IMG/VR virus record: IMGVR_UViG_3300035698_027676
Location: 1 to 38,689 of that record
Direction: 5' to 3' (one strand)
Length of the DNA stretch: 38,689 bases
DNA from: a virus
The translations under genes were made by a program, and so were the position numbers. Under the pieces are notes generated by a model. It did no database searches. It saw only the letters and a program-made list of their open reading frames with translations, and had not been told where the DNA came from. Shown piece after piece: positions 4,296-29,715 of this stretch; position 1 is the first letter of the stretch, and every line of letters begins with the position of its first letter.

Positions 4296-5099
4296 ATGTC
4301 ATTCTTAAATTATTATCTAGATCGTCGGGAAACTAAAGTCTTGGAAATGGCTGTCCCGGCAGCAAAATTTGGCGATAAAACTGTTCATGAAAAGCGCAAA
4401 GTTCCCATTTTTATGGATCAAGCAGATATTGATTATCTATATCAATTCCCGCCTTCTCTTTGGTCTCAGGCTTTATCTTACAGATATAATGAACTTCTTT
4501 ATTCTGCACAAAAAGCTGGAGGAAGAAAAAGAAAACTTGATGATGTTCAAAACGTCACATTAACATTGGAATCTGGTAAGGGTGGAGATCAAAAAATTCA
4601 ATTTCCAAAAGTAGAGGTTGGAATTAATGATTTGATGCACCGTTTAACTGCCGATGTTGATGATGATTATATTTCTCAAATTGGAAAATCAGAAGAAGAT
4701 AAAGCGACATATCAAAAACACGCTGATGAAAATAAATTAGGACATTATGGTTTTGATTTAACTGGAATGAAGCGCAGCAAAAAAGGATATGGAACCAGTG
4801 AAGGTTTTGTGCTAATGGATAAGAACACAGCCAGAAAGCGTTTGGCTACTTTGCGAAACGCCATAGCGGATGGATGGTATGGAGGAGTCCCCAAAGACGC
4901 CACTATGAAACCTATGAAATATGGCACAGGTTCTCGTAAAAATATGTGGGTTCATAACGAAGAAGAACTTAGACAATTGCCAAATAACAAAAAGTATGGG
5001 AAAACACGAGATGGAAAACGTATTTGGTATGGTTATATGCAAAGTGGAAAAGCGATTCGTTTTTGCAGAATACTTTGCCGGTTCTTAAGCCCGCAATGA
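4296..5099 (+). CDS. Hypothetical phage protein, probable N-terminal part of a frame-broken 879-aa protein
   Basis: 267 aa as read. No family recognised. It is soluble, mixed alpha/beta, Lys-rich and contains GYGTSEGFVLMD and RDGKRIWYGY segments. The last 11 residues (CRILCRFLSPQ) differ in character from the rest: they hold the only cysteines. If the ribosome, or the true sequence, shifts -1 in the T5 run at 5060-5064, the frame continues as IRF-LQNTLPVLKPAMM into the next gene, giving one 879-aa protein. As written it ends in an ATGA overlap with the next ATG at 5096. No Shine-Dalgarno is visible before either start. Confidence 0.6.
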   Translation: MSFLNYYLDRRETKVLEMAVPAAKFGDKTVHEKRKVPIFMDQADIDYLYQFPPSLWSQALSYRYNELLYSAQKAGGRKRKLDDVQNVTLTLESGKGGDQKIQFPKVEVGINDLMHRLTADVDDDYISQIGKSEEDKATYQKHADENKLGHYGFDLTGMKRSKKGYGTSEGFVLMDKNTARKRLATLRNAIADGWYGGVPKDATMKPMKYGTGSRKNMWVHNEEELRQLPNNKKYGKTRDGKRIWYGYMQSGKAIRFCRILCRFLSPQ

Positions 5100-6934
5100 T
5101 GGTGGATAGAAAAATCTTTTTAATACACATAAAGAAATTAATGAATAGAGCTAACCAGATAGAAGAAGATCTTGGTTTTGATAATGGATTTGATATTTAT
5201 ATGCAAGCTGGTGACCCCAACCAACGAAAACACTTGGAAGATGAAGTTTCTCGAATTGAAACGTGGTTAAAAAATCCACAAAATAAAAAACCCTCAAGTG
5301 GAAAAGATACAAAACATAATGAAAGGAAAGAAAAAAACAAACAAAAGAAAATAATTATTGCAGTTTTAGAAGGCACATCTTCAGCAGCACATTCATATAT
5401 GGAAGATATGCAAAAAACAAGAGGAGGAATTTCATATCAACAGGCTCTTAAAGCATTAAGTTCAAATAAAGGATTGATGAAGGATTATTTAGTGAAAACG
5501 GTGTCGGCATACAAACAACAAGCTAAAAATGTTCAAGAAAAAGCAGAACGTTATAAAGATCCTCATGATTGGAATGTGCATCACTTTAATCCAGACTATC
5601 GTAATTTACATACTTCTGCTGTAGGGTTTGGTACCGTTAATACCAATTGGCAACAAAAAGAAACTGTCCATGGAGCTTTGCTAAAATTAGGCATCGAACC
5701 TGATGAATTTTGGCAAGAGTTAAAACCATACTTAGCGCAAGCAGGATCAGAAGACGATATTCCTTACGTCCAACCACATCCGGGACATAAACAGGAAGGT
5801 AGTGGAGAAAATATACTTTTTGGTAGCATAGGAAATGGACTTAATTCTTTTCTTGGGAAACCCGGTTTGCATGAAACTCCCGCATGGTTTGCAATGATTA
5901 AAAATTGGTGGGAAATATTTGAAAATGCTTCTGATTATTTGAGAGGTAGATTGGGAAGTAAAGCATTTATTCCTTTTGCTAGACAATTTGACAAATATAA
6001 AACTGGCAATTACGATAAAACGGCTATAAAATCTAGTTTTAATCAAATGTCTAAAACAGCAAAACAAACGAGTGAAAATTACGCAGCAATGGTATATCAA
6101 TTAAAAAGCAGGCTCCGTCCAGGGACTCCAGGTGGTCCTGATCTTGGAGATGTGCTTGGACACATTGGTTATCAATTACAACCTACCGCTCAAAATATTG
6201 CCTATAAATGGAATAGAATTCACCGTCCTGAAGATCCTGGTTTCAAACAACACGGAGTTCACGGACAAACCAGTCATGACATTGAAACTCTAAAACAATT
6301 AATTGACAAAGAGTTAGTTAGCGATGAACAAGTAGCCCAAGAAGTGGCTCAAGCTGTGGGAAGTCAAAAGAAAGTAGCAGCATCAATTGCTGGCGGCATG
6401 AATGCTGGAGAACAAAAAATGATACAACACGTTGTAGATACGGGTTTGGCATTTCAAATGTATAGACAGATCTATATTTGGCTTAAACAAGAATCTGGAG
6501 AACAATGGAACTTAAAAGAAGCCAATGCATTTGCTAGTAGTGCAGTAGACAAATACATGTTAAAACAAGGTTATGGTGGTCGTAATTTTGGAGGACTTCC
6601 GCAGGGAGATCCTAAAAATGCTTTTGCGATTACAAAAAATCAAAAAGAACAAGAAGATCAATTGCGCCAACAATTTCCTGATGCTGCTAAAAAACTAGGA
6701 CCAGGAACATTGGTTCCGCCCACTAGTGGAAAAATTTCAGATCAAGCAGATCATCTTGTTAAATTATTACAAGTCTTACAAAATCCTAAAACACTTATGG
6801 CTCTTAGAAAGAGTTCAAAACGTTATAACAAACGACTTAGAGATTTTTTTGAAAAGAAAGTCCAAGACAAGGAAGTGGGCTATGTAATTATTCAAAAAGT
6901 TCTTATAGGTGTTGATAAATTAGATAAAAAATAA
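5096..6934 (+). CDS. Large hypothetical phage protein (612 aa), possibly the C-terminal part of a frame-broken protein
   Basis: No family recognised. The frame is open upstream to at least 5024, but ATG 5096 overlaps the previous stop as ATGA, so I chose it for the two-gene reading. Residues about 55-90 (numbered from 5096) are a highly basic Lys/Asn-rich linker (HNERKEKNKQKKIIIAV). The remainder is largely helical with a Gly/Pro-rich middle (PGTPGGPDLGDVLGHIGYQL) and a basic C-terminus. There is no signal peptide or membrane segment. The size and charge pattern would suit a virion-internal or DNA-packaged protein, but that is a guess. It converges on the next minus gene with no gap, and a small hairpin lies at 6936-6952. 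Confidence 0.65.
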   Translation: MMVDRKIFLIHIKKLMNRANQIEEDLGFDNGFDIYMQAGDPNQRKHLEDEVSRIETWLKNPQNKKPSSGKDTKHNERKEKNKQKKIIIAVLEGTSSAAHSYMEDMQKTRGGISYQQALKALSSNKGLMKDYLVKTVSAYKQQAKNVQEKAERYKDPHDWNVHHFNPDYRNLHTSAVGFGTVNTNWQQKETVHGALLKLGIEPDEFWQELKPYLAQAGSEDDIPYVQPHPGHKQEGSGENILFGSIGNGLNSFLGKPGLHETPAWFAMIKNWWEIFENASDYLRGRLGSKAFIPFARQFDKYKTGNYDKTAIKSSFNQMSKTAKQTSENYAAMVYQLKSRLRPGTPGGPDLGDVLGHIGYQLQPTAQNIAYKWNRIHRPEDPGFKQHGVHGQTSHDIETLKQLIDKELVSDEQVAQEVAQAVGSQKKVAASIAGGMNAGEQKMIQHVVDTGLAFQMYRQIYIWLKQESGEQWNLKEANAFASSAVDKYMLKQGYGGRNFGGLPQGDPKNAFAITKNQKEQEDQLRQQFPDAAKKLGPGTLVPPTSGKISDQADHLVKLLQVLQNPKTLMALRKSSKRYNKRLRDFFEKKVQDKEVGYVIIQKVLIGVDKLDKK

Positions 6935-7285
6935 TCAACTTTTAAGAAGTTGTAAGTAATGGTTTTTCAATTCTTTAATTGGAATATCTTTTACTTTTTT
7001 ACGATTAATGTGTTCAAACATTCCGCTAATTGGTACTCCTTTTTTTACAATATCAAGTAAATTCAACAATTCTTCAACTGTGTCTTTTGGATTCTTTTTA
7101 ATCGTTTGTAAAAGTTGATTTACAACATTTTTTTTAAAGGGAGTTAATTTAGTTCCCATATTTTTTAATTTTTTGTTTATTTCTTTTTCTATTTCTATTT
7201 CTTTTGTTTCAACAGCAGGTTTGTCTACGGGCGTTTCTTCTTTTGGTTTTTTTGGTTCTTCGGGTTCGAAACCCAAATCTAACAA
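6935..7285 (-). CDS. C-terminal part of a TGA-interrupted acidic/Pro-rich protein
   Basis: 116 aa if started at the TTG at 7285. No ATG or Shine-Dalgarno is present. The same frame is open without a break back to the TGA at 7349-7351 that ends the 418-aa gene upstream. The 21 linking codons encode the same acidic, Pro-rich style (DDDEPIKDKPEPSEDQD) seen on both sides. The natural reading is therefore one 556-codon gene (6935-8605) with a single in-frame TGA. The C-terminus is helical and basic (NVVNQLLQTIKKNPKDTVEE), possibly a small folded domain. Alternatives are stop-codon readthrough, a recent nonsense mutation or a base error. Confidence 0.6.
   Translation of the reverse strand: MLDLGFEPEEPKKPKEETPVDKPAVETKEIEIEKEINKKLKNMGTKLTPFKKNVVNQLLQTIKKNPKDTVEELLNLLDIVKKGVPISGMFEHINRKKVKDIPIKELKNHYLQLLKS
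6936..6952. terminator. Weak hairpin between convergent genes
   Basis: CAACTT-TTAAG-AAGTTG forms a 6-bp stem with a 5-base loop. Read on the minus strand it is followed by ATTATTTTTTAT, so it could act as an intrinsic terminator for the 6935-8605 gene set. On the plus strand no T-run follows. The stem overlaps the minus gene's last codons. The stem is short and AT-rich, so termination strength is doubtful. Confidence 0.4.
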
Positions 7286-7348
7286 ATCTTGATCTTCTGA
7301 AGGTTCAGGTTTGTCCTTTATGGGCTCGTCATCATCTTCATAATCTTT

Positions 7349-8605
7349 TCAATGTCCAAATCCTTTTTTATCGAAATTACTCATTTTATCTGGCAATTCG
7401 TCGCCTTCTTCGTGTGGAAACTCAGTTGAAGGTTCAGATTTTATACCGCCTAATTTTTGGGGTTCGGGCATTTGCATTAGCCCTTTAGTCCATCCAATTT
7501 TTCTTAATATCGCTTCTTGAATCGGTATGTTTTCTTTTCCGAGTTCCCCAAGTCCCATAGATTTAAACCATTTTTTTAATATATCTCCACGCACAGCAGT
7601 CCCAGTGACTTTTTTAAGAGTTTCTGTAACTTCTTCTGGGTTGAAAATGTTTTTATTTTGACTAACTAGCCATCGAAGAGTAGCGTGGATGTGTTTTTTA
7701 AACAAGAGTTTTCTTCCGTTTGTCCAATCTGGTTTAGGAGTTTCTATCTGATCCATTTGACCTAATAATTGTTGTTTATATTTGTCAAATTTGCCGTCAA
7801 TTTTATTAATGAGGTCAAAATCATCATCCATCAACGTCAGATCGTCGTCATTGTCTACTGGGGGGGATGGCTTTAGTGGCTCTGGTTGTTCTGGCTCTGG
7901 TTGTTCTGGCTCATCTGACTGTGTTGTAAGTCGTGGATCTCCAACACCATAACTTGCCTTTATATCAGCGTCAGATGTAAGATCTGGTGCCGCCCCACCC
8001 TTTGCACCATATTGTGCATCGGTATTTGGAACTTCTTCTGGTTTTGCTGAAGAGCCTCCAATTTGTGTCCTGGCAGCAATAATTAATTTTTTAATATCGT
8101 TTCTAAACTTTTGCACAGCCGCAACAATTCCTTCTTCAGGTTCGGCATTAGCTGCTTCAACTACTTCATCAGATAAATTCTCGATTAAAAAATCTAATTC
8201 ATTATATTCTTCTAAAGTTAAATGACCACTGGAGCTTTCTGTTTTACCTTGTCCTTTTGGAAGATTGGGATATAAATGAGAATAATCGGGATTATCTGAT
8301 GATCTTCCTTTCCACAACCACCGCAAAATACCTCTTACTCCATTCCATTGGGGATTGTTTGATGAAGGCGCACCGGTAGCAGAAGGTAATGAAGATGTTT
8401 TATTTGGTGGAATCTGAGTTTTTGGAGACACTGGTTGGTTTGTCTGCTGTTGAGCTTTCTGCTGTTGAATAGCTTGAGTAACTAAATTGTGCAAACCCCT
8501 CAAATGAACAGATAAGCTCAAAGACAATTCTTGAGCTGCCTTATCAATATCTTTTCCTAATTTATTTACAATTTCAATTGGGTTAGATTTTTCAACCGAT
8601 GTCAT
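7349..8605 (-). CDS. Acidic, Pro/Gln-rich hypothetical protein (418 aa), N-terminal part of a TGA-interrupted gene
   Basis: Not recognised. The N-terminal 50 residues form a likely amphipathic helix, followed by a Gln/Pro/Ser-rich disordered linker, a helical segment about 125-190, a second linker with the repeat EPEQPEPEQPEP, and a folded-looking domain about 285-380 (KHIHATLRWLVSQNKNIF). Good Shine-Dalgarno (TGAGGA) before ATG 8605. It ends at TGA 7349-7351, after which the same frame continues to 6935. The multidomain layout with long linkers could suit a scaffold or hub, but there is no direct evidence. It follows the 73-aa gene by 25 bases on the same strand, so they are probably cotranscribed. 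Confidence 0.65.
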   Translation of the reverse strand: MTSVEKSNPIEIVNKLGKDIDKAAQELSLSLSVHLRGLHNLVTQAIQQQKAQQQTNQPVSPKTQIPPNKTSSLPSATGAPSSNNPQWNGVRGILRWLWKGRSSDNPDYSHLYPNLPKGQGKTESSSGHLTLEEYNELDFLIENLSDEVVEAANAEPEEGIVAAVQKFRNDIKKLIIAARTQIGGSSAKPEEVPNTDAQYGAKGGAAPDLTSDADIKASYGVGDPRLTTQSDEPEQPEPEQPEPLKPSPPVDNDDDLTLMDDDFDLINKIDGKFDKYKQQLLGQMDQIETPKPDWTNGRKLLFKKHIHATLRWLVSQNKNIFNPEEVTETLKKVTGTAVRGDILKKWFKSMGLGELGKENIPIQEAILRKIGWTKGLMQMPEPQKLGGIKSEPSTEFPHEEGDELPDKMSNFDKKGFGH

Positions 8606-8630: not shown

Positions 8631-8852
8631 CTACTCGTGTCCACGACATTCTCCCATTTTTTTTAAAGACATGATACATGCATCAAAACGATGAAATTCG
8701 CTTGTTAGGTAATTTAATTGAAGATCATTGAATTCTATAGTGTCTTTTTCATCTACATCAAAGATAATATCTTTACCGCGTCGGCCTAATGGTTTCCAAC
8801 CATGCATTAAAAGATAAGCTCCCGCGCCCAAATCACTTACTGTTTTCCTCAT
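8631..8852 (-). CDS. DUF5659-like small protein, 73 aa
   Basis: The sequence AYLLMHGWKPLGRRGKDIIFDV, with a central hydrophobic strand and a C-terminal helix (RFDACIMSLKKM), resembles the DUF5659 family of small phage and bacterial proteins, whose function is unknown. The family match is from memory of its pattern (AYLL-x-G-[FW]-x-x-x-G-R-x-x-K) and not computed. Shine-Dalgarno GAAGGT precedes ATG 8852. It is located between the actin-like gene and the long acidic protein in one minus-strand run. Confidence 0.6.
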   Translation of the reverse strand: MRKTVSDLGAGAYLLMHGWKPLGRRGKDIIFDVDEKDTIEFNDLQLNYLTSEFHRFDACIMSLKKMGECRGHE

Positions 8853-8979: not shown

Positions 8980-10002
8980 TTATTTAGAATTTTCTGCCGC
9001 TATCAAACAACCACGCGCCACTGAATACAGAGGATCTTTAGGACGAATAATTTTACCAACATTTATTGGCAAATCTGCCTTTGACACAATTTCTTGGAAA
9101 AGTTCTGGAAATCCCTTGGGGGAACTAGTTCCACCAGATACAACGATATCAATTGGGTGATCTAATCGAGCTTTTTTACCAGCATCCTTTAATCCTTTTT
9201 TTATTCCTGAAACTGTTTTTTGAATCATGATTTCATATTGGGCTTTAATAGCTCTTTGAACAAGTTCTGTGGGATTCTCTACGGTTAAATCTGTTTTGAG
9301 CTTTTCTTTATTCACATAAGTGGTGGTTTCTTCGCCACACGCTCTAGTTGCCTGTTTGTCTATCCAATCTCCGCTGTTAATCAAAGAAAATTGAAATACA
9401 GGGGCTCCAAAAACAGCAAAGCAAATATTGACCATACCCGCTCCGAAACTTATCCCCAGACCCGTCCATGATTTTTCTGCCAATTCCGCATAAACCAAAG
9501 CTAACCCTTCGTTAATTGGATAAATTTCCAATCCCAAAGAATTTCCATCTTCATCTTCTGCTGAACTAAAGATGGCGTGGAGAACTTTTCCATGATAATC
9601 AGCGTCAGTTTCTTCATTGATCGCGTTGGCAGGAACACTATAAAAAATAGTATCTTTTGGTTGTGCTCCTTCAATTAAACTGTGAACCATAATACTCATA
9701 ATTTCTTGAGCATGTCGTTCTTTGGGGTTTAAACAACCATCTTTCATTGGTCTGTGGAGTTCTATCTGTGTCATTGTGTAAGCCATATCAACAGCAGCTT
9801 CTCCCAAAGCATAAGCCACATCTTGATCTTCGGACTCCACAAGAGGAACTCCTGCTTTATTCATCATGTTGAATACAAACCTATTGTTGTCAAGAGGCAT
9901 TTCTAAGAAAGCATTGACTTCTCGTTTATAAGTAATTTTTCCTTCTTCGTTGCGCTTAGCAGAAACTAAATTATATGTCCCAGCATCGAACCCGTAACTC
10001 AT
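8980..10002 (-). CDS. Actin-like ATPase (ParM/MreB/Hsp70 superfamily)
   Basis: 340 aa, the normal size for a bacterial actin homologue. All superfamily landmarks are visible in order: phosphate-1 loop (GFDAGTYNLV, residues 4-13, Asp6), connect-1 (NEGLALVYAEL, 164-174), phosphate-2 (GISFGAGMVN, 183-192), adenosine motif (VVSGGTSSPKGF, 287-298) and connect-2 (SVARGCLIAAE, 327-337). Such proteins bind ATP and many form filaments that move or position DNA. Divergence is too great for me to assign ParM, AlfA or MamK type. Strong Shine-Dalgarno AAGGAG. Fifteen bases upstream lies a 72-aa gene in the same operon, the position where plasmid actin systems carry their partner. Confidence 0.8.
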   Translation of the reverse strand: MSYGFDAGTYNLVSAKRNEEGKITYKREVNAFLEMPLDNNRFVFNMMNKAGVPLVESEDQDVAYALGEAAVDMAYTMTQIELHRPMKDGCLNPKERHAQEIMSIMVHSLIEGAQPKDTIFYSVPANAINEETDADYHGKVLHAIFSSAEDEDGNSLGLEIYPINEGLALVYAELAEKSWTGLGISFGAGMVNICFAVFGAPVFQFSLINSGDWIDKQATRACGEETTTYVNKEKLKTDLTVENPTELVQRAIKAQYEIMIQKTVSGIKKGLKDAGKKARLDHPIDIVVSGGTSSPKGFPELFQEIVSKADLPINVGKIIRPKDPLYSVARGCLIAAENSK

Positions 10003-10236: not shown

Positions 10237-10285
10237 ATGATTATTTATGTTTTTGGATGGCTTTTTCACCAATAAGAGAGTATAA

Positions 10286-10293
10286 TATAAATA
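10286..10293 (+). promoter_or_regulatory. T4-late-type promoter element (TATAAATA) for the HNH gene
   Basis: The octamer TATAAATA, the consensus of T4-type late promoters, lies 42 bases before ATG 10335. It falls just inside an apparent upstream extension of the HNH frame, which supports 10335 as the true start. Caution: several copies of this AT-only octamer are expected by chance in a sequence this AT-rich, and three others occur inside genes. Confidence 0.45.
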
Positions 10294-10334
10294 ATTTGTT
10301 CCGTAAGTTACTAAATAAAAAGAAAGGAATAATT

Positions 10335-11111
10335 ATGGTTCATATTACACTTCAATCAGTGCAAAAACATTTAGAATCTTTTGGTTGTAATCTTTTAGAG
10401 GAAACATATATCAATAGTAGTACGCCACTTAAATATTGTTGTAATTGCGGGCGCATTACAACGGCAACATGGAACAATCTTTCAAGAAGAAAACCAGGAT
10501 GGAAATGCAAGAAGATTCACCGATTAGATATTGATTTTATTCGTTCTGAATTCACTAAACGTAATTGCAAGTTGTTGGAAGATAAATATGTGTATTCCGA
10601 TGTACCAATGAAATATATTTGTTCTTGCGGCAATTCCCACCAAATGAGTTGGGATAATTTTAAGCAAAACCACAAATGTAACAAATGTGGTTACGATGAA
10701 ATACGTGGATCAAATAACCATTTGTGGAATCCCAACCGACAAGCAGTCTTATTGAATGAGAAAATTAGGAAAAAATACTATCACATGCTTAGACAGACTT
10801 TACGTGCTGCGGGAACAAAAAAGGATAAAAAGAGTTTAGAAATTTTGGGGTATACTTCCAATCAACTCTTGGAACATTTAATGAAACATCCTGATTGGGT
10901 TGTATTAAAGAATAAAAATTGGCAATTAGATCACATTTTTCCTATCAAGGCTTTCGTTGATTATGGTATTTTTGATATTCAATTGATTAACGGACTAGAC
11001 AATCTTCGTCCCTCAGCAACGAAAAATAATTTATCTAAAGGTGGTTCTTATAATCCAAAAGAATTTGAAATATGGTTGACAACTAAAGGACATGTAATGG
11101 CCAACGATTAA
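10335..11111 (+). CDS. HNH homing endonuclease with two zinc-ribbon repeats
   Basis: 258 aa from ATG 10335, which has AAAGGA upstream; an ORF extension to 10257 would lie before the promoter. Residues about 6-60 and 66-118 are two copies of one module carrying cysteine pairs (KYCCNCGR; KYICSCGN, then HKCNKCG), probably zinc-binding DNA-recognition units. The nuclease domain follows: Asp199-His200 (WQLDHIFPIKAF), Asn223 (LDNLRP) and Asn231-Asn232 (TKNNLSKGG) of the HNH/treble-clef fold. It is a free-standing, presumably mobile endonuclease gene, inserted between a divergent operon and a convergent glycosyltransferase it overlaps by 29 bases. Confidence 0.87.
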   Translation: MVHITLQSVQKHLESFGCNLLEETYINSSTPLKYCCNCGRITTATWNNLSRRKPGWKCKKIHRLDIDFIRSEFTKRNCKLLEDKYVYSDVPMKYICSCGNSHQMSWDNFKQNHKCNKCGYDEIRGSNNHLWNPNRQAVLLNEKIRKKYYHMLRQTLRAAGTKKDKKSLEILGYTSNQLLEHLMKHPDWVVLKNKNWQLDHIFPIKAFVDYGIFDIQLINGLDNLRPSATKNNLSKGGSYNPKEFEIWLTTKGHVMAND

Positions 11112-14283: not shown

Positions 14284-15132
14284 CTATTCCTCTAAGAAAA
14301 AATCTGTAATGTTTTCCAACGATATATAGTTGGCATGTTCCAGCTTTATTCCTTTGGAACAATTTCCTATTTTAACTCCTTGTGTTTTAAGCCAATATAG
14401 ACATGCATCAATAACATGTTGAGACATGATTTGTTGAGGATAAGTCCACAAACCATTGTCTAAATTTTCGGCTGTAGCTCTTTCTTCTTTAAAACTATCA
14501 TCACAACAAAAAAGGAGTAATTTTTGGACTCCTAAAGTGTATGCCAAGTGAATTGCTGCACAAATCGGATTTCTATAATCATCTAAAATTGTTTCAGCTT
14601 TAATTTGTGGCGAATACTTTTGATCTAAAGTCGGTGTATAAAAAAAGAGTGATCCATCATAATTTCTTGTAAATAATGGATTAGTTCTGGTGGATGCCAC
14701 ACAATCAGGAAAGTATCGGTGTTTTTTGGGTAAGTATCTAGCACATTCTTCAAAAGGATTATTAGCTACATAAAAAGATATAGCTCTCTTTTTGGATGCT
14801 TTCTCTCCCACCATTTTCCATTTTGCCAAAGTTCCATTTGTACTAATAATTTTTACATCTTTGTATGAAAATTCTGCTAATTTTTCTTGTTGTTCTTCAA
14901 AATCATAACCATCCGAAACAATAATTAAATTTGGGTAAATTATATTTCTTTCTTCTAATGTCGAATTAATTTTGTGAACATTAGACAATTCATTTTTCAA
15001 AAAAAGCCTTATATCTCGTTCATTACAAAGATTATTGATGTCAATTTTAGGGGTTCTTTGGGTAAAGTCGCGCACCCACATACCTTCTTCTGTCAGAAGA
15101 TAATTGTTGTCGTATTTCTTTTTAATTCTCAT
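14284..15132 (-). CDS. DUF115/MAF-like putative glycosyltransferase
   Basis: 282 aa. Residues 188-212 (NPICAAIHLAYTLGVQKLLL, then FCCDDSF) match the family pattern of an Asn-containing loop, a helix, and a strand ending in Asp. A late GIKLEHANYISLENI (261-275) resembles the C-terminal segment of DUF115 / MptE-like / motility-accessory-factor proteins. Some of these transfer nonulosonic acid or related sugars to flagellin Ser/Thr. Family assignment is by eye. The start ATG (15132-15130) overlaps the stop of the repeat-fibre gene as ATGA, so translation is coupled to that fibre. That makes the fibre the obvious candidate substrate. Confidence 0.55.
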   Translation of the reverse strand: MRIKKKYDNNYLLTEEGMWVRDFTQRTPKIDINNLCNERDIRLFLKNELSNVHKINSTLEERNIIYPNLIIVSDGYDFEEQQEKLAEFSYKDVKIISTNGTLAKWKMVGEKASKKRAISFYVANNPFEECARYLPKKHRYFPDCVASTRTNPLFTRNYDGSLFFYTPTLDQKYSPQIKAETILDDYRNPICAAIHLAYTLGVQKLLLFCCDDSFKEERATAENLDNGLWTYPQQIMSQHVIDACLYWLKTQGVKIGNCSKGIKLEHANYISLENITDFFLEE

Positions 15133-17609
15133 TTGTTTGGATTACAAGGAACCAAGGCAAAGCATGGTTGTTCGCCTTCTTCGCCGCCAATTAAATTAGA
15201 GGTGTTGAATTGGACCGGTACTGGTCCACCTTTGTAAACGAGTGGTATCTCTAAATTTTCTGGCACTTCTAAACGAGCAATTATTTGAGAGGGCATCTTG
15301 ACTTCGATAGAATCTGGCATTCCTCGAACTTCTATAAAATCAGGTATTCCAGAAGCATCCAATTTTATTTGAGTAGGGAAGTTTTCGGGAGTCAAAAGAC
15401 GAATTACATCTGGCACATTTGATTCTAATTTTATGGATTTGGGTAAATCTTGTGCTATAAGTTCAATATGTTGTGGAATTTCCTCGCTAGTTATTTTTAT
15501 ACTTCTGGGCAGTGGTGGTCCGCTCCATTCCATTTTAATATTGGGTATCTCAGGAACTTCTAAAGAAATACTTTGAGGCACATCGTGTCGAACATTAATG
15601 TCTGGAATTGTCGGTGCTACGATTTTAATTTCAGAAGGTATTCCAAGACTTTTTGCCTTAAAATTTAATGGAGGGGGTTTAAATGCGTCTTTTTGAAGAG
15701 AAGAACCTTCATCAATTAATTTTTTAGTTGTTGCTCTAGAAGCAGCACTAGTATTAAAAAGTGCTGCTGGTTCCGTACAAGAAACATCTACTGAAATAGA
15801 GCAATCACAACTTATAGTTGGTACTTCGCCCCATGAAACAGTAATTTCAGGAGTGGAATCAAATACCACTTGAATTTCATCTGGAAGGCTATCTGTTAAA
15901 GTTACGGTGATGTCTTGAAGACTATCTGTTAAAGTTACATCAATGGTGGTCGGTATATTGTCTATTACATTAATGGTGGTTGGTATATTGTCTATTACAT
16001 TAATGGTGGTTGGTATATTATCTGTTACAGTAATGGTATCTGGCACATCATCTGTTACAGTGATATCGTATTCCAGACTATCCAATACGTTAATCTCGTA
16101 TTCTAGACTATCTACTACAGTAATTTCTGATGGAATGTCATCTATAACAGTAATAAATGAAGGAACATCAATTGTAGCTGTAAATGACATTTCTGAAGGA
16201 AATTCGGCAATCAGTCTTATTTCTGAAGGTATATCTCCAACAATATTGATTACAGAAGGTATGTCGCAGCCTGTAAGTTCAATTGTTGATGGTATACTAT
16301 CAAGAACTATAATTGTTGATGGTATATCCGTACCAATAATAGAAATGGTGTCCGGAATTATCAAAGAAATCGTGGTTGGAATTTCTGCTATCAAAGAAAT
16401 CGTGGATGGAATATCCACTATTACAGAAATAGTAGATGGAATATCATCAATTACAATAATTGTGCTTGGAATATCTAAACTATCCCAAATAATGATGCTT
16501 GTCGGAAAACTGTCAAAGACAATAATTGTGCTGGGAATATCATCAATTACAATAATTGTGCTGGGAATATCATCAATTACAATAATTGTGCTGGGAATAC
16601 TATCAATTAAGATGATTGTGCTGGGAAGATTTGGCATATCTAGTGTAATTACACTTGGAATATTAATATCTATAGTCGGAATGATAATTGATGGTATGTT
16701 AATGTCTGGTATGTTAATGTTTGGAATGTCCAAACATGGAAAAACAATTTGAGGAAGTTCTAACGTTGGAACGGGAATGTCGATATCAGGAACTACTATT
16801 TCAGGTATTTCTATTTCAGGAATAGGAATGCTAAAAGTTTCCTCTTCTTCTTCTGTTGTTGGCTCTACTAAAGGAATTCTGTCAGAGGGAGTTTGTATGA
16901 CTGTGCATACTTCACTAGTAACTGTAATTATTGGATCAACAATAGAATTGGCTGGATAAGTATGGGTTCCAGACAATTCTGAGTTTGTAGAAGTTCCATC
17001 TCCAAATTCTATTTTAAAATTAGTGTACTGACCTATAAGCGTCACAGAATATTCAGCAAGTGTGTCGTAACAACTAGTGGGATTGTCCTGTATTTGAAAA
17101 TCAAAATTAACAGTTACACAATATGCATCATCAATACAGGTTGGTTCATCAACTAATCTGCTAATTTTATCGTCAATATCTAAAATAAAAAGTTCTGTGG
17201 CTTGAATAGCATAAGCTATTTGATTGTGATGTTCTGCTACAACAAATCCTCTAACCCAAGTCCCTCGCCGTCCTTCGGGATCACCAGGGATGGGTTCTGT
17301 GGATGCTAAGTTAAACTGAGTTTGATCTCCACCTATGTTTCTGGCACACCTTGTGAATTTATAAATTTTTCCATTAGCATTTTTTTCTACTGAATCATAG
17401 TAAAAAAGTTCTCCATTGATGCTGCTAAATCCATTTTCAGGCCAGATTTCTAATTCGTTAACTCCAACAGGTATAATTTCAATTTCTTCTGCCCAAGCAG
17501 GATTATTTTGCGCAAGTCGAGCCTCACTGGTACTAAAGACCAGATATAATGTTCTGTTAGAGTCTATTGCTTTTGGATAGACAGGTTGCGGTGGAAAACC
17601 AACGGCCAT
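15129..17609 (-). CDS. Fibre protein with PKD domain and long 10-residue IPSTI-type repeat shaft
   Basis: 826 aa. Residues 10-140 are the N-terminal domain shared with the next two fibre genes, ending in VVAEHHNQIAYAI. Residues 165-235 are a PKD-like Ig fold (EFGDGTSTNSELSGTHTYP). Residues 255-600 consist of about 30 ten-residue repeats, consensus D-I-P-S-T-I-x-V-I-D, with Pro at a fixed position and alternating hydrophobic residues. Residues 650-790 hold a second diverged set (IPxxIKL). The C-terminus has paired cysteines (Cys816, Cys822). The repeats probably form a beta-type shaft (solenoid or intertwined trimer). It is probably a receptor-binding or spacer fibre. Shine-Dalgarno AGGAGG. 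Confidence 0.78.
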   Translation of the reverse strand: MAVGFPPQPVYPKAIDSNRTLYLVFSTSEARLAQNNPAWAEEIEIIPVGVNELEIWPENGFSSINGELFYYDSVEKNANGKIYKFTRCARNIGGDQTQFNLASTEPIPGDPEGRRGTWVRGFVVAEHHNQIAYAIQATELFILDIDDKISRLVDEPTCIDDAYCVTVNFDFQIQDNPTSCYDTLAEYSVTLIGQYTNFKIEFGDGTSTNSELSGTHTYPANSIVDPIITVTSEVCTVIQTPSDRIPLVEPTTEEEEETFSIPIPEIEIPEIVVPDIDIPVPTLELPQIVFPCLDIPNINIPDINIPSIIIPTIDINIPSVITLDMPNLPSTIILIDSIPSTIIVIDDIPSTIIVIDDIPSTIIVFDSFPTSIIIWDSLDIPSTIIVIDDIPSTISVIVDIPSTISLIAEIPTTISLIIPDTISIIGTDIPSTIIVLDSIPSTIELTGCDIPSVINIVGDIPSEIRLIAEFPSEMSFTATIDVPSFITVIDDIPSEITVVDSLEYEINVLDSLEYDITVTDDVPDTITVTDNIPTTINVIDNIPTTINVIDNIPTTIDVTLTDSLQDITVTLTDSLPDEIQVVFDSTPEITVSWGEVPTISCDCSISVDVSCTEPAALFNTSAASRATTKKLIDEGSSLQKDAFKPPPLNFKAKSLGIPSEIKIVAPTIPDINVRHDVPQSISLEVPEIPNIKMEWSGPPLPRSIKITSEEIPQHIELIAQDLPKSIKLESNVPDVIRLLTPENFPTQIKLDASGIPDFIEVRGMPDSIEVKMPSQIIARLEVPENLEIPLVYKGGPVPVQFNTSNLIGGEEGEQPCFALVPCNPNK
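15240..15644 (-). repeat. Second, diverged repeat block of the fibre
   Basis: Encodes about a dozen 10- to 14-residue units of the form [IV]P-x-x-I-[KE]-[LV], for example IPSEIKIV, LPKSIKLE, FPTQIKLD, MPDSIEVK. They are more charged than the first block and not similar enough in DNA to be recent duplicates. Confidence 0.7.
15810..16847 (-). repeat. In-frame 30-bp tandem repeats of the fibre shaft
   Basis: Roughly 30-bp units encode IPSTIIVIDD-like decapeptides. Near-identical copies occur about 16515-16610 (unit with TCATCAATTACAATAATTGT) and about 15945-16030 (unit with TCTATTACATTAATGGTGGT), which shows recent local duplication. Others have diverged at DNA level but keep the Pro and hydrophobic pattern. 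Confidence 0.9.
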
Positions 17610-23743: not shown

Positions 23744-24292
23744 TCACTCCTTGTAAGCTAATGTTTTGCTTAACTGTCCAAGGTTATATAGGTCATGAGA
23801 TAAAAAGGTTTCCCATTCATCTTCAATCTCTTCTATATCCTTCGCCTTTGTATCTGCCCAATCCATAATACCCAACCAATTCTCTCCATAATTTCCCAAA
23901 ATTTCTTCATCTGGCTCTATATCCCTAATAAATTTATAAACAGCTTTACCTGCCGCTGAATTTTTAGTAGGACCATTGTGGTAAAATATCTCTGCATTTT
24001 GCTGTGATTCTGAATGATTAACAATGCCTCCCAAACCCAAGGGAACTATTTTGCGTGTGGCATTCGTTATCCGTTCTCCCCGCTTATTCATCTTCCCATT
24101 AGCAGCAAATTTGTATTTATCGGCATAATGGGTGCATCTATCAACTAAAGAATTATTTTTAACTTGTACACCAATTATTTCTAATGATTCTCCTCTTTTT
24201 AGAGCTACACGGGAAAAGACACCCATGCCTGCATTGGGAATAGTAGATTCTTTAATATAGAATCTATCATCGGTTTCTTCTATAAGGATCAT
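23744..24292 (-). CDS. SET-domain protein (putative lysine methyltransferase)
   Basis: 182 aa from ATG 24292; I reject a TTG extension to 24307. SET landmarks are clear: STIPNAGMGVFSRVALKRGE (16-35, the G-x-G SAM-binding loop), GGIVNHSESQQNAEI (88-102, the N-H-S motif), and IRDIEPDEEILGNYGENW (122-139, with the catalytic-region Tyr135). No pre-SET or post-SET cysteines are present, like small stand-alone viral and bacterial SET proteins. It would methylate a Lys on a host or phage protein. Start overlaps the preceding stop as ATGA. Confidence 0.8.
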   Translation of the reverse strand: MILIEETDDRFYIKESTIPNAGMGVFSRVALKRGESLEIIGVQVKNNSLVDRCTHYADKYKFAANGKMNKRGERITNATRKIVPLGLGGIVNHSESQQNAEIFYHNGPTKNSAAGKAVYKFIRDIEPDEEILGNYGENWLGIMDWADTKAKDIEEIEDEWETFLSHDLYNLGQLSKTLAYKE

Positions 24293-24603
24293 TCTAAAAA
24301 ACCACAATCTATGGCGGCATTTAATTCTTTTATTGTTATTTCCCTTTCCAAAATTTCAGAAAGACAATTGAGGAAAAATCTGCATATTTCACCATGAACA
24401 CTTTTTTTTAAAAAAGGATCTTGTCCACAAAACTGTTTGGCACGTTCGAAATCTTTCCCCATTCCCCAATCAAATAAAACTCCATTAAAAAATAGAGCTT
24501 TATATCGGATCTCCGTTTCAGAATCAACGATTTCTTTTATTTTGCAAGAACACGACTTACTGTTGATTGATTTACTTTTACTTGACATGCTATTTGTTTT
24601 CAT
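24289..24603 (-). CDS. Hypothetical protein, 104 aa
   Basis: The N-terminus is Ser/Lys-rich and disordered (MSSKSKSINSKSCSCKIKEI); the remainder is a small alpha/beta domain (YKALFFNGVLFDWGMGKDFE). Five to six cysteines without a CxxC pair arrangement. Its position directly before, and coupled with, the SET gene suggests the two work together, for example as substrate or partner. Not recognised. Confidence 0.5.
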   Translation of the reverse strand: MKTNSMSSKSKSINSKSCSCKIKEIVDSETEIRYKALFFNGVLFDWGMGKDFERAKQFCGQDPFLKKSVHGEICRFFLNCLSEILEREITIKELNAAIDCGFLE

Positions 24604-24643: not shown

Positions 24644-25120
24644 TTAGATAAACGAGATTCTCCAAGTCCATGTTATTTGCATTTGTGCTGTCTTGCTAAA
24701 GCCTGCAAAAGTAATCATGCTATACAGTGTGCGAGGATCTGTATTCATTTCCAAACCCATTTCATTAATAGTGTGTCCCACAGCCTCATCACGAGCAACT
24801 ACTGACGTGAAAATTACCTGTGTCAAATCGTTGGGGTCCAATGTGCTAATAAGAGGCTTTCTTAAGATAGTAGTCCCAAAAAGACCACCTCTATCTTCAC
24901 TAATGAATTTAGGAACGCCACCTGAAGTTCCACCATCTCCAAATGCCATACGACTAATGAAATAGTCATAATTACTACCATATTGATTAGCTAAACTAGC
25001 AGCTAAGGCTTTTCTTCCATCTCGTAAGACTGTATTGTGAAAAAGGGTTTTTTCAATCCTGCCATCGTCCCATTCAATAATTCTTTCTACTTCGCCTTTA
25101 CAATGAACTTTTTCTATCAT
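24644..25120 (-). CDS. Virion/tail-associated protein, 158 aa
   Basis: Contains YFISRMAFGDGGTSGGVPKF (53-72) and VGHTINEMGLEMNT (113-126), then a closing beta segment MQITWTWRISFI. This G-D-G-G-T ... I-N-E-[MI]-G-L layout recurs in small phage tail and fibre-associated proteins near baseplate genes. Start overlaps the stop of the gpI-like gene (ATGA, 25117-25120) with the Shine-Dalgarno GAGGGA inside it. Likely a tail-tip or fibre-base component; the exact role is unknown. Confidence 0.65.
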   Translation of the reverse strand: MIEKVHCKGEVERIIEWDDGRIEKTLFHNTVLRDGRKALAASLANQYGSNYDYFISRMAFGDGGTSGGVPKFISEDRGGLFGTTILRKPLISTLDPNDLTQVIFTSVVARDEAVGHTINEMGLEMNTDPRTLYSMITFAGFSKTAQMQITWTWRISFI

Positions 25121-28100
25121 ACTTCTCCCTCTTCAACAGAATCATCTTCATATTTAATATTGTATGAAACCGATTCTGTTTGTGTTGTTGTATCTAAAAT
25201 ACCATCGTCTTGTTCCTTGGTATTTAAGATGTGATAAGCAAAAGATGTTCCATAAGTTACTTCACTTTCCACTATAGATGCTCCTCTTCGATCAATTAAA
25301 TCAAAATCATGGCCAGGAATCTCTGGATCTATGCGCTCTGGAATATTTGGTCCAAGTTTTTCAAAACGAATTATGTCGAAAGTTACCGATGTAGTAGATG
25401 TCACCTTCCAATCTTCATGCGGACCTAAAAGAGTAATTTCAGTTCCATCTATTTCACTCATAGAATAATAATTTGTAGAACTCGATGGTGTAGTTATTCT
25501 TATAAGATAATTTTCTTTAAATCTCCATTGAGCTTCTGTTTTATCTATTCCAATTGGAGGGTTTACTCCATTTTGAATGTCTAAATTAGCCTCATAATCA
25601 ATTATCGTTGTTAATTTAAGACCACGATAACCAAATTGAGCAACGGCGTTGTCAACTAAACGACGATACATCACAACAGATACCCCCACTACAGTTCCCG
25701 CTGTATAATTGTCTATGTAAAATTGATGAGTGTCACCATCCACAAATCCAATTACTTCATATTGAGATCCATTGTAAAGGGTATAATCTCTAATTTTAAT
25801 GAAGTTTTGTATGTTTTCGATACTAGTAGCGGAACTTCCAGGTTTAAAGTCTACAAGACCGCGACGACGAACAGAAAGAGCACCACTCGTGCCTGTGGCA
25901 CGAGTGGTGCTTGTTTCATCTTGTAGCAGCCAAGTTAAATCGGTTGTATCTGTTGTGGGTAAAGTTCCATCATCTTCCAAAACCAAAACACCATCAGGAA
26001 GAATGTCTTTTACATCATAAGCACCGCCACCAGAAGTGGAGAGTAAAACAGTCCAGGGATTGCCTGTTTGATATCCATCATCAATATCACGTTGACTTTT
26101 AACCCCTAATTCAATGAGAGCAGTTGTATTTCCATCACTAAAAGTGAACAAATCATCTTGTGTGATGTTAATTGGATTTCCACTAATGATTCGATTTGAC
26201 AATCTAAAAGTAAATTGTGTTTGATTCACTGGTTCAGAAAAAGCGGGATTTGCCGCAACAACATCTGCCATATATCCTGCGGGATTTTCTATCGAATAAT
26301 CCCCTGCTAGGGTATGTGGAGCTATAATTTCCAACCAGTTAGAATTATTTGCAGGAGCACCTCCTACGCTACTGGTATTTACTCCAAATCTTTCAAAGTC
26401 AAAATGATCTCCCTGGACATCATCTCCTGATCCTGGAGATAAAATCACTACAGATTCATTTGCAGACTCTCCAGCTATAGATGTGTAAACAACGGTGGAA
26501 TTCGCCAGCATATTTCTTTTAAGAAGTGAAAGAGCGTCTTGATGAGGTACTACTCTATTGAATATATTTTGAGCCTCACCAGCGATTACTACCTCTTCGC
26601 CAAACATATGGACAAGCATTACTACATCTTCTACTGGTGATGGAACAAATTCATTTACAGCACCGCCAAATGTAATAGAATGCAATAAGGCATGAAACGG
26701 TATGAATTCAGACAGGATGTTAGTTACTTCAATCATCCTATCATTAGCAAGTTCTTCTATTTCTACTTCTAGGTTGTACTTACTTCCCAAACAATGTCTG
26801 CAAGGGTCGATAAAGCCTTTGTCAATATTACAAGGATCTCCAGATTCTCTAGTTGAGTTGTGTGAAACTAAACCAGAGGTTAAATAAGATCTGGTATCAT
26901 CAACATTAACTGGATCAAAAACTTCATGTTTACCCCCGTCTGATATCAATCTAACTCGATCAAAAAACCACCCTTCAGCAAAATATTGTTTCAAAAATTG
27001 CAATTCTTTGCAATTTTCACCAAATTCTAATGCTTTAAAAAGAATGAATTCAACACAATTATCTGGTATGGTTGTGAGATATCCTTGCTTAATTCTAGTA
27101 ATCATTGTAAGTATGCGTTTTTCCTCACGACTTCTATCAATCGGTTTTGCATTACTCTTTCTATTTTTTCTAGGAAAAATTGCACGAACAATGTCACACG
27201 CATACGGAATAACCGTTTTATCATTTATATTTTGTTTTAAATTTTCATTTACAAGCCGTTGTTTTCGTTCTAAATTAAAACCAATCTTAGAAACAAACTT
27301 TGAAATTGAATCTTTTCCAATAACTCTGGTGCGCCAGTAAGTTCGTAATTCATCTTTATATCTAACTTTGTAATTGGTAACAGTAGAAAGAATGCCCAAC
27401 TGCAACAAAAGCATTTGAACTTCTTCACATAATGTGTGCCATTTTGAAGTAAATAATACAGATTTTTTCTGCACTCCACCATCTGTATCAAATAGCCCAC
27501 GAATAAAAGCACAAATTTGTGTTTCGCCACTACTCCATAATTGAACTGGAATATGTTGTTTCCAACAACCTTTTGGTTGAAAATTAGGCAAAACGTTTCC
27601 TAATTCTTTCGCTTGAATTCGAGATGTGCCAATTCTCCACATTGTTTCATTACACTTCATTGAAACATATAATTGATGTTTCTCTGGAGTGATTTTATAA
27701 ACATTAAATTTAGCTTGTTTGCTTGACAAGTAGTTTTCATACCAAACTTTTGTTGTGGATTCGGTTTCGGGTATTAGCAAATTAAAACGGCGTCGTCTAT
27801 CAATTGTTCCATCACCATAAATTAATCCGGCTGCGTACCATGTGTTAGTATCGCATCCTAAAGACGCGGATAAATTAGAATTGCCTCGCTTGCCAAGTAT
27901 AAAATCTCCAGTTTTGAGTTGGTCAGCACTTACCCAAATAAGGTTGCCATTTATACTCATTACCCTAAATTCATGATTCGGAGTAACGGTCAATCTACGA
28001 CCCATTGAAGTGTCAATTTTAAGTGTTTTTCTAATACCATGACTTACTACTGTTTCACACTCTCGAAATCCATATTCTGTCAGTAATTTTAATGACTTGC

Positions 28101-29715
28101 CAATTTGATCCCCAATACAAGCAACTTCGTCGCAAGTTGTTATCATAGTTGAACTTACAACGCAGCCATTATATTCTTCCATATTATAGATATTTTCTGA
28201 ATAGGGGAATTCTGTTCTAACCCATCCAAAAATCAGTGGATCATGTAAAGGATGTCTATTGGGAATTACCAAATCAAACATCGAATCATCTTCTTCAATT
28301 ACCCTTACATTCCAATTCTTCGGAGGATAACTTTGACTTCTCTCATCACGTTGATCTTCTAAATCAAGGGATCGTATATATTCTTCTATGATTTGTTGGG
28401 CAGCAAGAGTTATCTCATTGACTTTATAAATAACTCGAATTGATTCCCCTTCTTCTAAAATGATAGAATTAACAGACAATTGATCTCCTATCCAAGTTAA
28501 TGTAGATTGAGAACCAACTGTTGCTATTGTGATGTAATCAGAAGAAAGCTCCACCCATTCAGAAGTTGCGCTATTGTTGCGGTAATATACTTCTGTATTA
28601 TTAACATCTAATGTCAATGCGGTTTTAGCAAGCGAAAACGTAGTTTGTCCATCTTCTTCTACATCGAACATTTCTTGCCAAGTATACATGGAAATAACTT
28701 GCCATAAACGTATAAATTTTTCAAGACTCATACCTGCTTGAGATAGAGCCATTTGTAAACCTTTTCGTGTTCCCTTTTTTTTGTACAAGGGGACGGCTTC
28801 TTTAATTTGTCTTCGCCAAAGTGTAGGATCAATAGATCTAAGTCTAAGATTGAATAGGTTTCCTAGCAATTGCAACATGTTTTCTGGAACAACATTGGCA
28901 TCTATGACTCCCAAAAGTTGATTTGCTTGGTCTTCAAGAAACGTAAATCCTTTGGCTATAGCCATGTTGAATCCAGTCATTACTTCTGGCGTTAGATCGG
29001 CATCGCTAAATTTTTGATCTTTAAAGGTAGAAGGGAGATATCTTTGAACTAAAGTCTCATATTTATCTGGATCAGTAAATTGCGTTGGCAAACTCGTTGT
29101 TAGTTTGGTGTCTGTAAAAAGAGAAAAACTATTGTAATTGCTAATAGAGTCGCCTGCCGCAATTGGAAACCACTCCCAGCAAATAAAATAATCACCCTCA
29201 CGTTGAGATAAAGGCTCCCAGTATAAAATAAATTTTCCAGGAATTACTTCTTCATCTTCATCTTCGGCTGGAACAAGTATGTTGTTTGCAATAGTATCTA
29301 ATTCTTCTGTGGGTGGGACTTGATCTGGATCAAGCCAAGCTGGATATTCTTCGCTCAAAGCATCTGCGTGTCCAAAAACTTCAACAGGCAAAGCTCGTTT
29401 GTAATAAACACTATCTAATCTTTTGCTTTGATCTATTTTATTTTCAGCTAATACAACCGCATCTAAATTAGCTTGTGTAGGACTAGCACATAATGCTTCT
29501 TGAGCGTCTTCTAAATCTGTCACATAGTCAGGTTCAATCGTCTCCTTTTCATATTCTGTGTAATTTTTCCCAGAAAATCCCTTCTCCAAAAAATATATCT
29601 TAACAGTTGAGATTTTATATGGCGTAGACACACAATCATTTGCATCCGTAGTAGTTATTTCAAACTGAACGGTGTCTGTGATTTTAGGAGTTTCGTATAT
29701 TGTTTTGATAACCAT
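25117..29715 (-). CDS. gpI-like phage tail protein precursor with intein
   Basis: 1532 aa before splicing, 1096 after. Residues about 215-345 match the phage tail protein I domain (YLPSTFKDQKFSDADLTPEV; WRRQIKEAVPLYKKKGTRKG). Residues 518-953 are an intein. The C-extein starts STRESGDPCNIDKG with a Cys-rich patch and continues with a helical segment (NILSEFIPFHALLHSITFGG) and a long beta-rich region that may bind fibres. It follows the gp6/J-like gene, exactly where gpI lies in P2-like phages, so it should sit at the baseplate periphery. Much longer than P2 gpI. Confidence 0.82.
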   Translation of the reverse strand: MVIKTIYETPKITDTVQFEITTTDANDCVSTPYKISTVKIYFLEKGFSGKNYTEYEKETIEPDYVTDLEDAQEALCASPTQANLDAVVLAENKIDQSKRLDSVYYKRALPVEVFGHADALSEEYPAWLDPDQVPPTEELDTIANNILVPAEDEDEEVIPGKFILYWEPLSQREGDYFICWEWFPIAAGDSISNYNSFSLFTDTKLTTSLPTQFTDPDKYETLVQRYLPSTFKDQKFSDADLTPEVMTGFNMAIAKGFTFLEDQANQLLGVIDANVVPENMLQLLGNLFNLRLRSIDPTLWRRQIKEAVPLYKKKGTRKGLQMALSQAGMSLEKFIRLWQVISMYTWQEMFDVEEDGQTTFSLAKTALTLDVNNTEVYYRNNSATSEWVELSSDYITIATVGSQSTLTWIGDQLSVNSIILEEGESIRVIYKVNEITLAAQQIIEEYIRSLDLEDQRDERSQSYPPKNWNVRVIEEDDSMFDLVIPNRHPLHDPLIFGWVRTEFPYSENIYNMEEYNGCVVSSTMITTCDEVACIGDQIGKSLKLLTEYGFRECETVVSHGIRKTLKIDTSMGRRLTVTPNHEFRVMSINGNLIWVSADQLKTGDFILGKRGNSNLSASLGCDTNTWYAAGLIYGDGTIDRRRRFNLLIPETESTTKVWYENYLSSKQAKFNVYKITPEKHQLYVSMKCNETMWRIGTSRIQAKELGNVLPNFQPKGCWKQHIPVQLWSSGETQICAFIRGLFDTDGGVQKKSVLFTSKWHTLCEEVQMLLLQLGILSTVTNYKVRYKDELRTYWRTRVIGKDSISKFVSKIGFNLERKQRLVNENLKQNINDKTVIPYACDIVRAIFPRKNRKSNAKPIDRSREEKRILTMITRIKQGYLTTIPDNCVEFILFKALEFGENCKELQFLKQYFAEGWFFDRVRLISDGGKHEVFDPVNVDDTRSYLTSGLVSHNSTRESGDPCNIDKGFIDPCRHCLGSKYNLEVEIEELANDRMIEVTNILSEFIPFHALLHSITFGGAVNEFVPSPVEDVVMLVHMFGEEVVIAGEAQNIFNRVVPHQDALSLLKRNMLANSTVVYTSIAGESANESVVILSPGSGDDVQGDHFDFERFGVNTSSVGGAPANNSNWLEIIAPHTLAGDYSIENPAGYMADVVAANPAFSEPVNQTQFTFRLSNRIISGNPINITQDDLFTFSDGNTTALIELGVKSQRDIDDGYQTGNPWTVLLSTSGGGAYDVKDILPDGVLVLEDDGTLPTTDTTDLTWLLQDETSTTRATGTSGALSVRRRGLVDFKPGSSATSIENIQNFIKIRDYTLYNGSQYEVIGFVDGDTHQFYIDNYTAGTVVGVSVVMYRRLVDNAVAQFGYRGLKLTTIIDYEANLDIQNGVNPPIGIDKTEAQWRFKENYLIRITTPSSSTNYYSMSEIDGTEITLLGPHEDWKVTSTTSVTFDIIRFEKLGPNIPERIDPEIPGHDFDLIDRRGASIVESEVTYGTSFAYHILNTKEQDDGILDTTTQTESVSYNIKYEDDSVEEGEV
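26857..28164 (-). mobile_element. Intein with LAGLIDADG homing endonuclease
   Basis: 436 residues, Cys518 to Asn953 of the precursor. Splicing block A is CVVSSTMITTCDEV, block B is LTVTPNHEF (T-x-N-H), blocks F/G are DDTRSYLTSGLVSHN followed by Ser954. Thus Cys1, penultimate His, terminal Asn and a +1 Ser are all present and splicing should work. The endonuclease has both dodecapeptide motifs, AGLIYGDG (Asp635) and RGLFDTDG (Asp745), with catalytic acids intact. It would excise itself from the tail protein and spread to intein-free alleles. Confidence 0.93.

Follow-up and report, generated by a model that had tools for sequence, protein, structure and literature searches.

An interrupted frame downstream of a phage volactin gene

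The window analysed here, the whole of a 38,689-base IMG/VR virus record, derives from an uncultured, probably huge, phage and carries on its minus strand an actin-like gene (8980-10002) that matches the Pfam Volactin family (PF25216, E 2.5e-69). Volactin was described as an actin-like protein of Haloferax volcanii (PMC10869688); we found no report on a phage volactin in the literature searched. It is followed on the same strand by a small conserved gene (8631-8852; DLGAGAYLLMHG...) with a DLGAGAY motif, and directly after this by the gene under study. Starting from an ATG at 8605, this gene runs for 418 codons to a TGA at 7349-7351 (next base A), beyond which the same frame continues through 137 sense codons (6938-7348) to a second TGA at 6935-6937. 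From these coordinates and from the alignment described below, the full-length gene was delimited to 6935-8605 on the minus strand. The initial annotation had described a continuous gene split by a single in-frame TGA, as the ORF coordinates bear out, and its count of 556 codons corresponds to 555 sense codons (418 + 137) plus the TGA itself.

With the base statistics of the extension itself, 137 open codons would arise by chance with a probability of about 1.6e-5, and with those of the window the value rises to 2.4e-4. The codon usage of the extension frame scored +0.55 bits per codon, whereas none of the other five frames exceeded +0.11. The junction is devoid of an ATG or a Shine-Dalgarno sequence. 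A downstream gene with a start codon of its own, separate from the first, could be proposed from a TTG at 7285, the first of the extension, and from its first ATG, at codon 64, and two other tandem gene pairs of the window also happen to be in frame. However, no recognisable Shine-Dalgarno sequence was found at either of these codons and, as detailed below, homology crosses the junction in one ORF in the closest relative and the C-terminal module never forms an ORF of its own, so that this arrangement is very improbable.

Relatives encode the same protein in one ORF

Used directly as queries against viral contigs and annotated phages, neither half of the split gene yielded a single match, because the protein evolves fast, and its relatives were recovered only through their volactin neighbour, at 80 loci. 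The volactin query itself had few matches among genome contigs, most of them distant, a pattern search around the stop detected no near-identical strains, and the convergent gene downstream retrieved no relatives when used as query. Volactin is encoded by phages, on contigs of up to 532 kb in some cases, with the small DLGAGAY gene downstream in 76 of the 80 loci. With these two genes as synteny anchors, most complete loci displayed the order volactin, small DLGAGAY gene and a modular gene at the position occupied in the window by the split gene.

The closest contig (L002), whose volactin is 81% identical, shows colinearity with positions 1855-38689 of the window. Its counterpart of the split gene is one unbroken ORF of 573 residues, to which a single HSP aligns query residues 1-556 (E 1.8e-40), and it stops at the same place as the window extension, just before the convergent gene. 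The end of the extension, HINRKKVKDIPIKELKNHYLQLLKS (6938-7012, minus strand), aligns end to end with the L002 terminus YINKLKSRRIPLEERKNFFRKAMVS. In a local alignment the extension and the L002 C-terminus scored 88, against a mean of 45 (sd 7.7) for shuffled sequences, and none of 2000 shuffles scored as high. This C-terminal motif is common to the ends of family members (L002, L004, L009, L049, L072 and others) and about a dozen lineages carry it C-terminally, always in one ORF with the N-terminal part.

A short profile of the motif placed it in one ORF with the N-terminal part in 20 of 20 loci, a result that is partly by construction given that these loci make up or resemble the training set of the profile. 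The record of an uncultured huge phage excluded from the motif definition (LR756511, 595 kb) also has the motif at the end of a single ORF, of 549 residues, which likewise disfavours two separate genes. The profile is weak alone, assigning 10.8 bits to the window extension and equal scores to some short spurious ORFs, and for this reason we base the argument on gene position, on synteny and on the alignment with L002. The relatives adjoining volactin in LR756511 and in IMG/VR contigs of up to 532 kb have their gene order and C-terminal motif in common with the window gene but differ from it in being single ORFs and in their low identity to the window protein (about 15-30%).

The window gene therefore has the position of the family and full-length homology to its members, C-terminal motif included, but is interrupted, whereas its relatives are uninterrupted. 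An in-frame stop upstream of the motif was absent from every relative examined, and the C-terminal module was found as a separate ORF in none. Homologues ending at the first stop and followed by an independent gene, which would have spoken for two genes, were sought and not found. In L065 and L068 a frame stays open for 186 codons beyond a TGA, which was considered as a parallel and rejected; the continuation there is without the motif and resembles the start of a separate signal-peptide gene. The C-terminal ends of five other relatives (L003, L010, L018, L041 and L042) are without the motif.

Comparison with L002 also pointed to probable insertions elsewhere in the window. A LAGLIDADG intein of about 436 residues (Cys518 to Asn953; 26857-28164, minus strand; PF14528, E 5.6e-18; PF14890, E 3.9e-10) lies inside a Tail_P2_I-like tail protein (25117-29715), and the L002 homologue is devoid of an intein at the same site. 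A 284-residue ORF on the plus strand (10257-11111) resembled an HNH-type endonuclease by eye, with no Pfam match; its flanking genes adjoin each other in L002, and it is probably an inserted mobile gene. The tail gene cluster further includes a SET-domain protein (23744-24307, minus strand; PF00856, E 5.7e-07) and a low-complexity protein (15129-17609, minus strand) with many 'DIPSTIxVIDxIPSTI' repeats.

Predicted architecture of the read-through protein

An AlphaFold2 model of the read-through protein, of low confidence (pLDDT 53), consisted of helical modules and disordered linkers. The stop falls within a predicted linker (residues 382-463, pLDDT below 50), which continues into the extension as an acidic Pro/Lys-rich stretch and is followed by a C-terminal helical module (about residues 464-556). 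A fold search with this low-confidence model gave no significant match, and the protein matched no entry of Pfam or PHROGs. The intact form, as encoded in the relatives, would be a modular protein of 500-600 residues in which helical segments alternate with acidic or Pro-rich disordered linkers, its gene lying downstream of the actin-like volactin gene in large phages. The conserved gene order suggests a role linked to volactin; a place in the virion, implied by the initial annotation, finds no support given that no family library recognises the protein. The tryptophan that had been proposed for the stop position is not specifically supported either, the poorly conserved linker leaving this residue unspecified by the homologues.

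UGA keeps its meaning as a stop

Reassignment of UGA to a sense codon or to selenocysteine has some precedent, as UAG is reassigned in some huge phages (PMC7162821). However, TGA terminates at least six genes of the window at the same point as their L002 homologues and the window genes use TGG 176 times, from which we conclude that UGA retains its stop meaning. An internal TGA was found only once, and no tRNA was found in the window. Recoding is, on this evidence, barely credible, in agreement with the initial annotation, which had deemed global recoding unlikely.

Readthrough, with a mainly 418-residue product and a minor full-length form, had been among the options initially proposed. Phage Q-beta produces its coat protein and the A1 protein in this manner. 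The window gene resembles the Q-beta type in having a UGA, an open continuation and a C-terminal module appended to a short major product, and the position of the stop inside a linker ahead of a conserved module is compatible with such a design. Unlike in readthrough of the Q-beta type, the window stop is not conserved, its relatives encode a stop-free long form, and no recoding element was found. The RNA structure 3' of the stop was unremarkable (z -0.9 to -1.3), no Rfam element matched, and only the UGA-A context could be pointed to. This context is leaky, and tRNA-Trp tends to misread it in E. coli (PMC5289835), but two other window genes also terminate in TGA-A and have ordinary ends. With a second lesion, of another type, in the neighbouring gene, programmed or selected readthrough appears improbable, judging from these comparisons.

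A second lesion in the convergent neighbour

The damage extends beyond the split gene, since the convergent neighbour (4296-6934, plus strand) carries a frameshift seen only in the window. It is divided into ORFs of 267 (4296-5099) and 636 residues (5024-6934), with the change of frame near a run of five T (5061-5065), and it is a single ORF in L002 (835 residues), L042 (772), L003 (1040), L009 (1075) and L018 (1335). The two window-only lesions, different in type and about 2.3 kb apart, are the only ones in the 38.7 kb, the other window genes with an L002 counterpart being intact. They suggest either locally poor sequence or the recent decay of a pair of accessory genes, and for this reason favour sequence error or gene decay over programmed readthrough. 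A survey of 162 complete genes for volactin, primase and exonuclease (159 kb) in comparable contigs turned up no clear lesion, with one short case at a contig end. Lesions being this rare, error is not a default expectation.

A pseudogene or a fragment of a draft assembly would likewise have an in-frame stop private to one contig, with frame, codon bias and homology running on past it and an adjacent gene frameshifted. The window differs from the typical case in having two lesions only, against a near-zero frequency in comparable contigs.

Discussion

The ancestral frame at this locus is single, its interruption is private to one contig, and a second private lesion lies next door. We propose that both ORFs belong to one gene and that the in-frame TGA results from a draft-contig error or a real nonsense mutation, a reading to which we assign a probability of roughly 90% from the sequence comparisons, with error slightly favoured over true mutation. 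Of the options offered initially, nonsense mutation or base error is thereby favoured and programmed readthrough disfavoured, as no relative has the stop and a second window-only lesion, absent from the initial annotation, is adjacent; the homologues uphold the overall description of one continuous gene interrupted by one TGA in a genome whose code is not globally altered. An in-frame stop could possibly also have arisen from a pair of homopolymer indels that flank the TGA and compensate each other, but two errors would be required.

If the TGA is real, the main product would be a 418-residue protein deprived of the C-terminal helical module, and near-cognate misreading of UGA-A may yield a small amount of the full-length form with no dedicated recoding signal. 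Judging from the model, the truncated protein could be tolerated, because the stop lies in a linker and some relatives are naturally devoid of the C-terminal module. A truncation fixed in the lineage, with a functional short protein, is one form of the preferred explanation, and we regard it as a tentative one: the five relatives without the motif and the predicted location of the stop between modules are in line with it, but the 137 codons have kept their coding bias and the family C-terminus and have acquired no further stop, so that any truncation must be very recent.

A consideration against error or simple mutation is that a single stop substitution with no loss of frame on either side also fits a readthrough cassette. 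A newly arisen linker UGA-A retained in this lineage for its leakiness, so that the gene next to the volactin filament gene yields mainly a short protein and to a lesser extent a long one, is a scenario that we consider quite unlikely. Were the stop real and selected, huge phages would have a stop-codon switch acting on a protein whose gene adjoins that of an actin-like filament, which the evidence disfavours. On the preferred reading of error or nonsense mutation, the annotation of the window changes from two ORFs to one disrupted gene, and the neighbouring ORFs of 267 and 636 residues likewise become another. The locus brings to light a conserved, uncharacterised family in phages, in which volactin is accompanied by the DLGAGAY protein and by a linker-rich modular protein.
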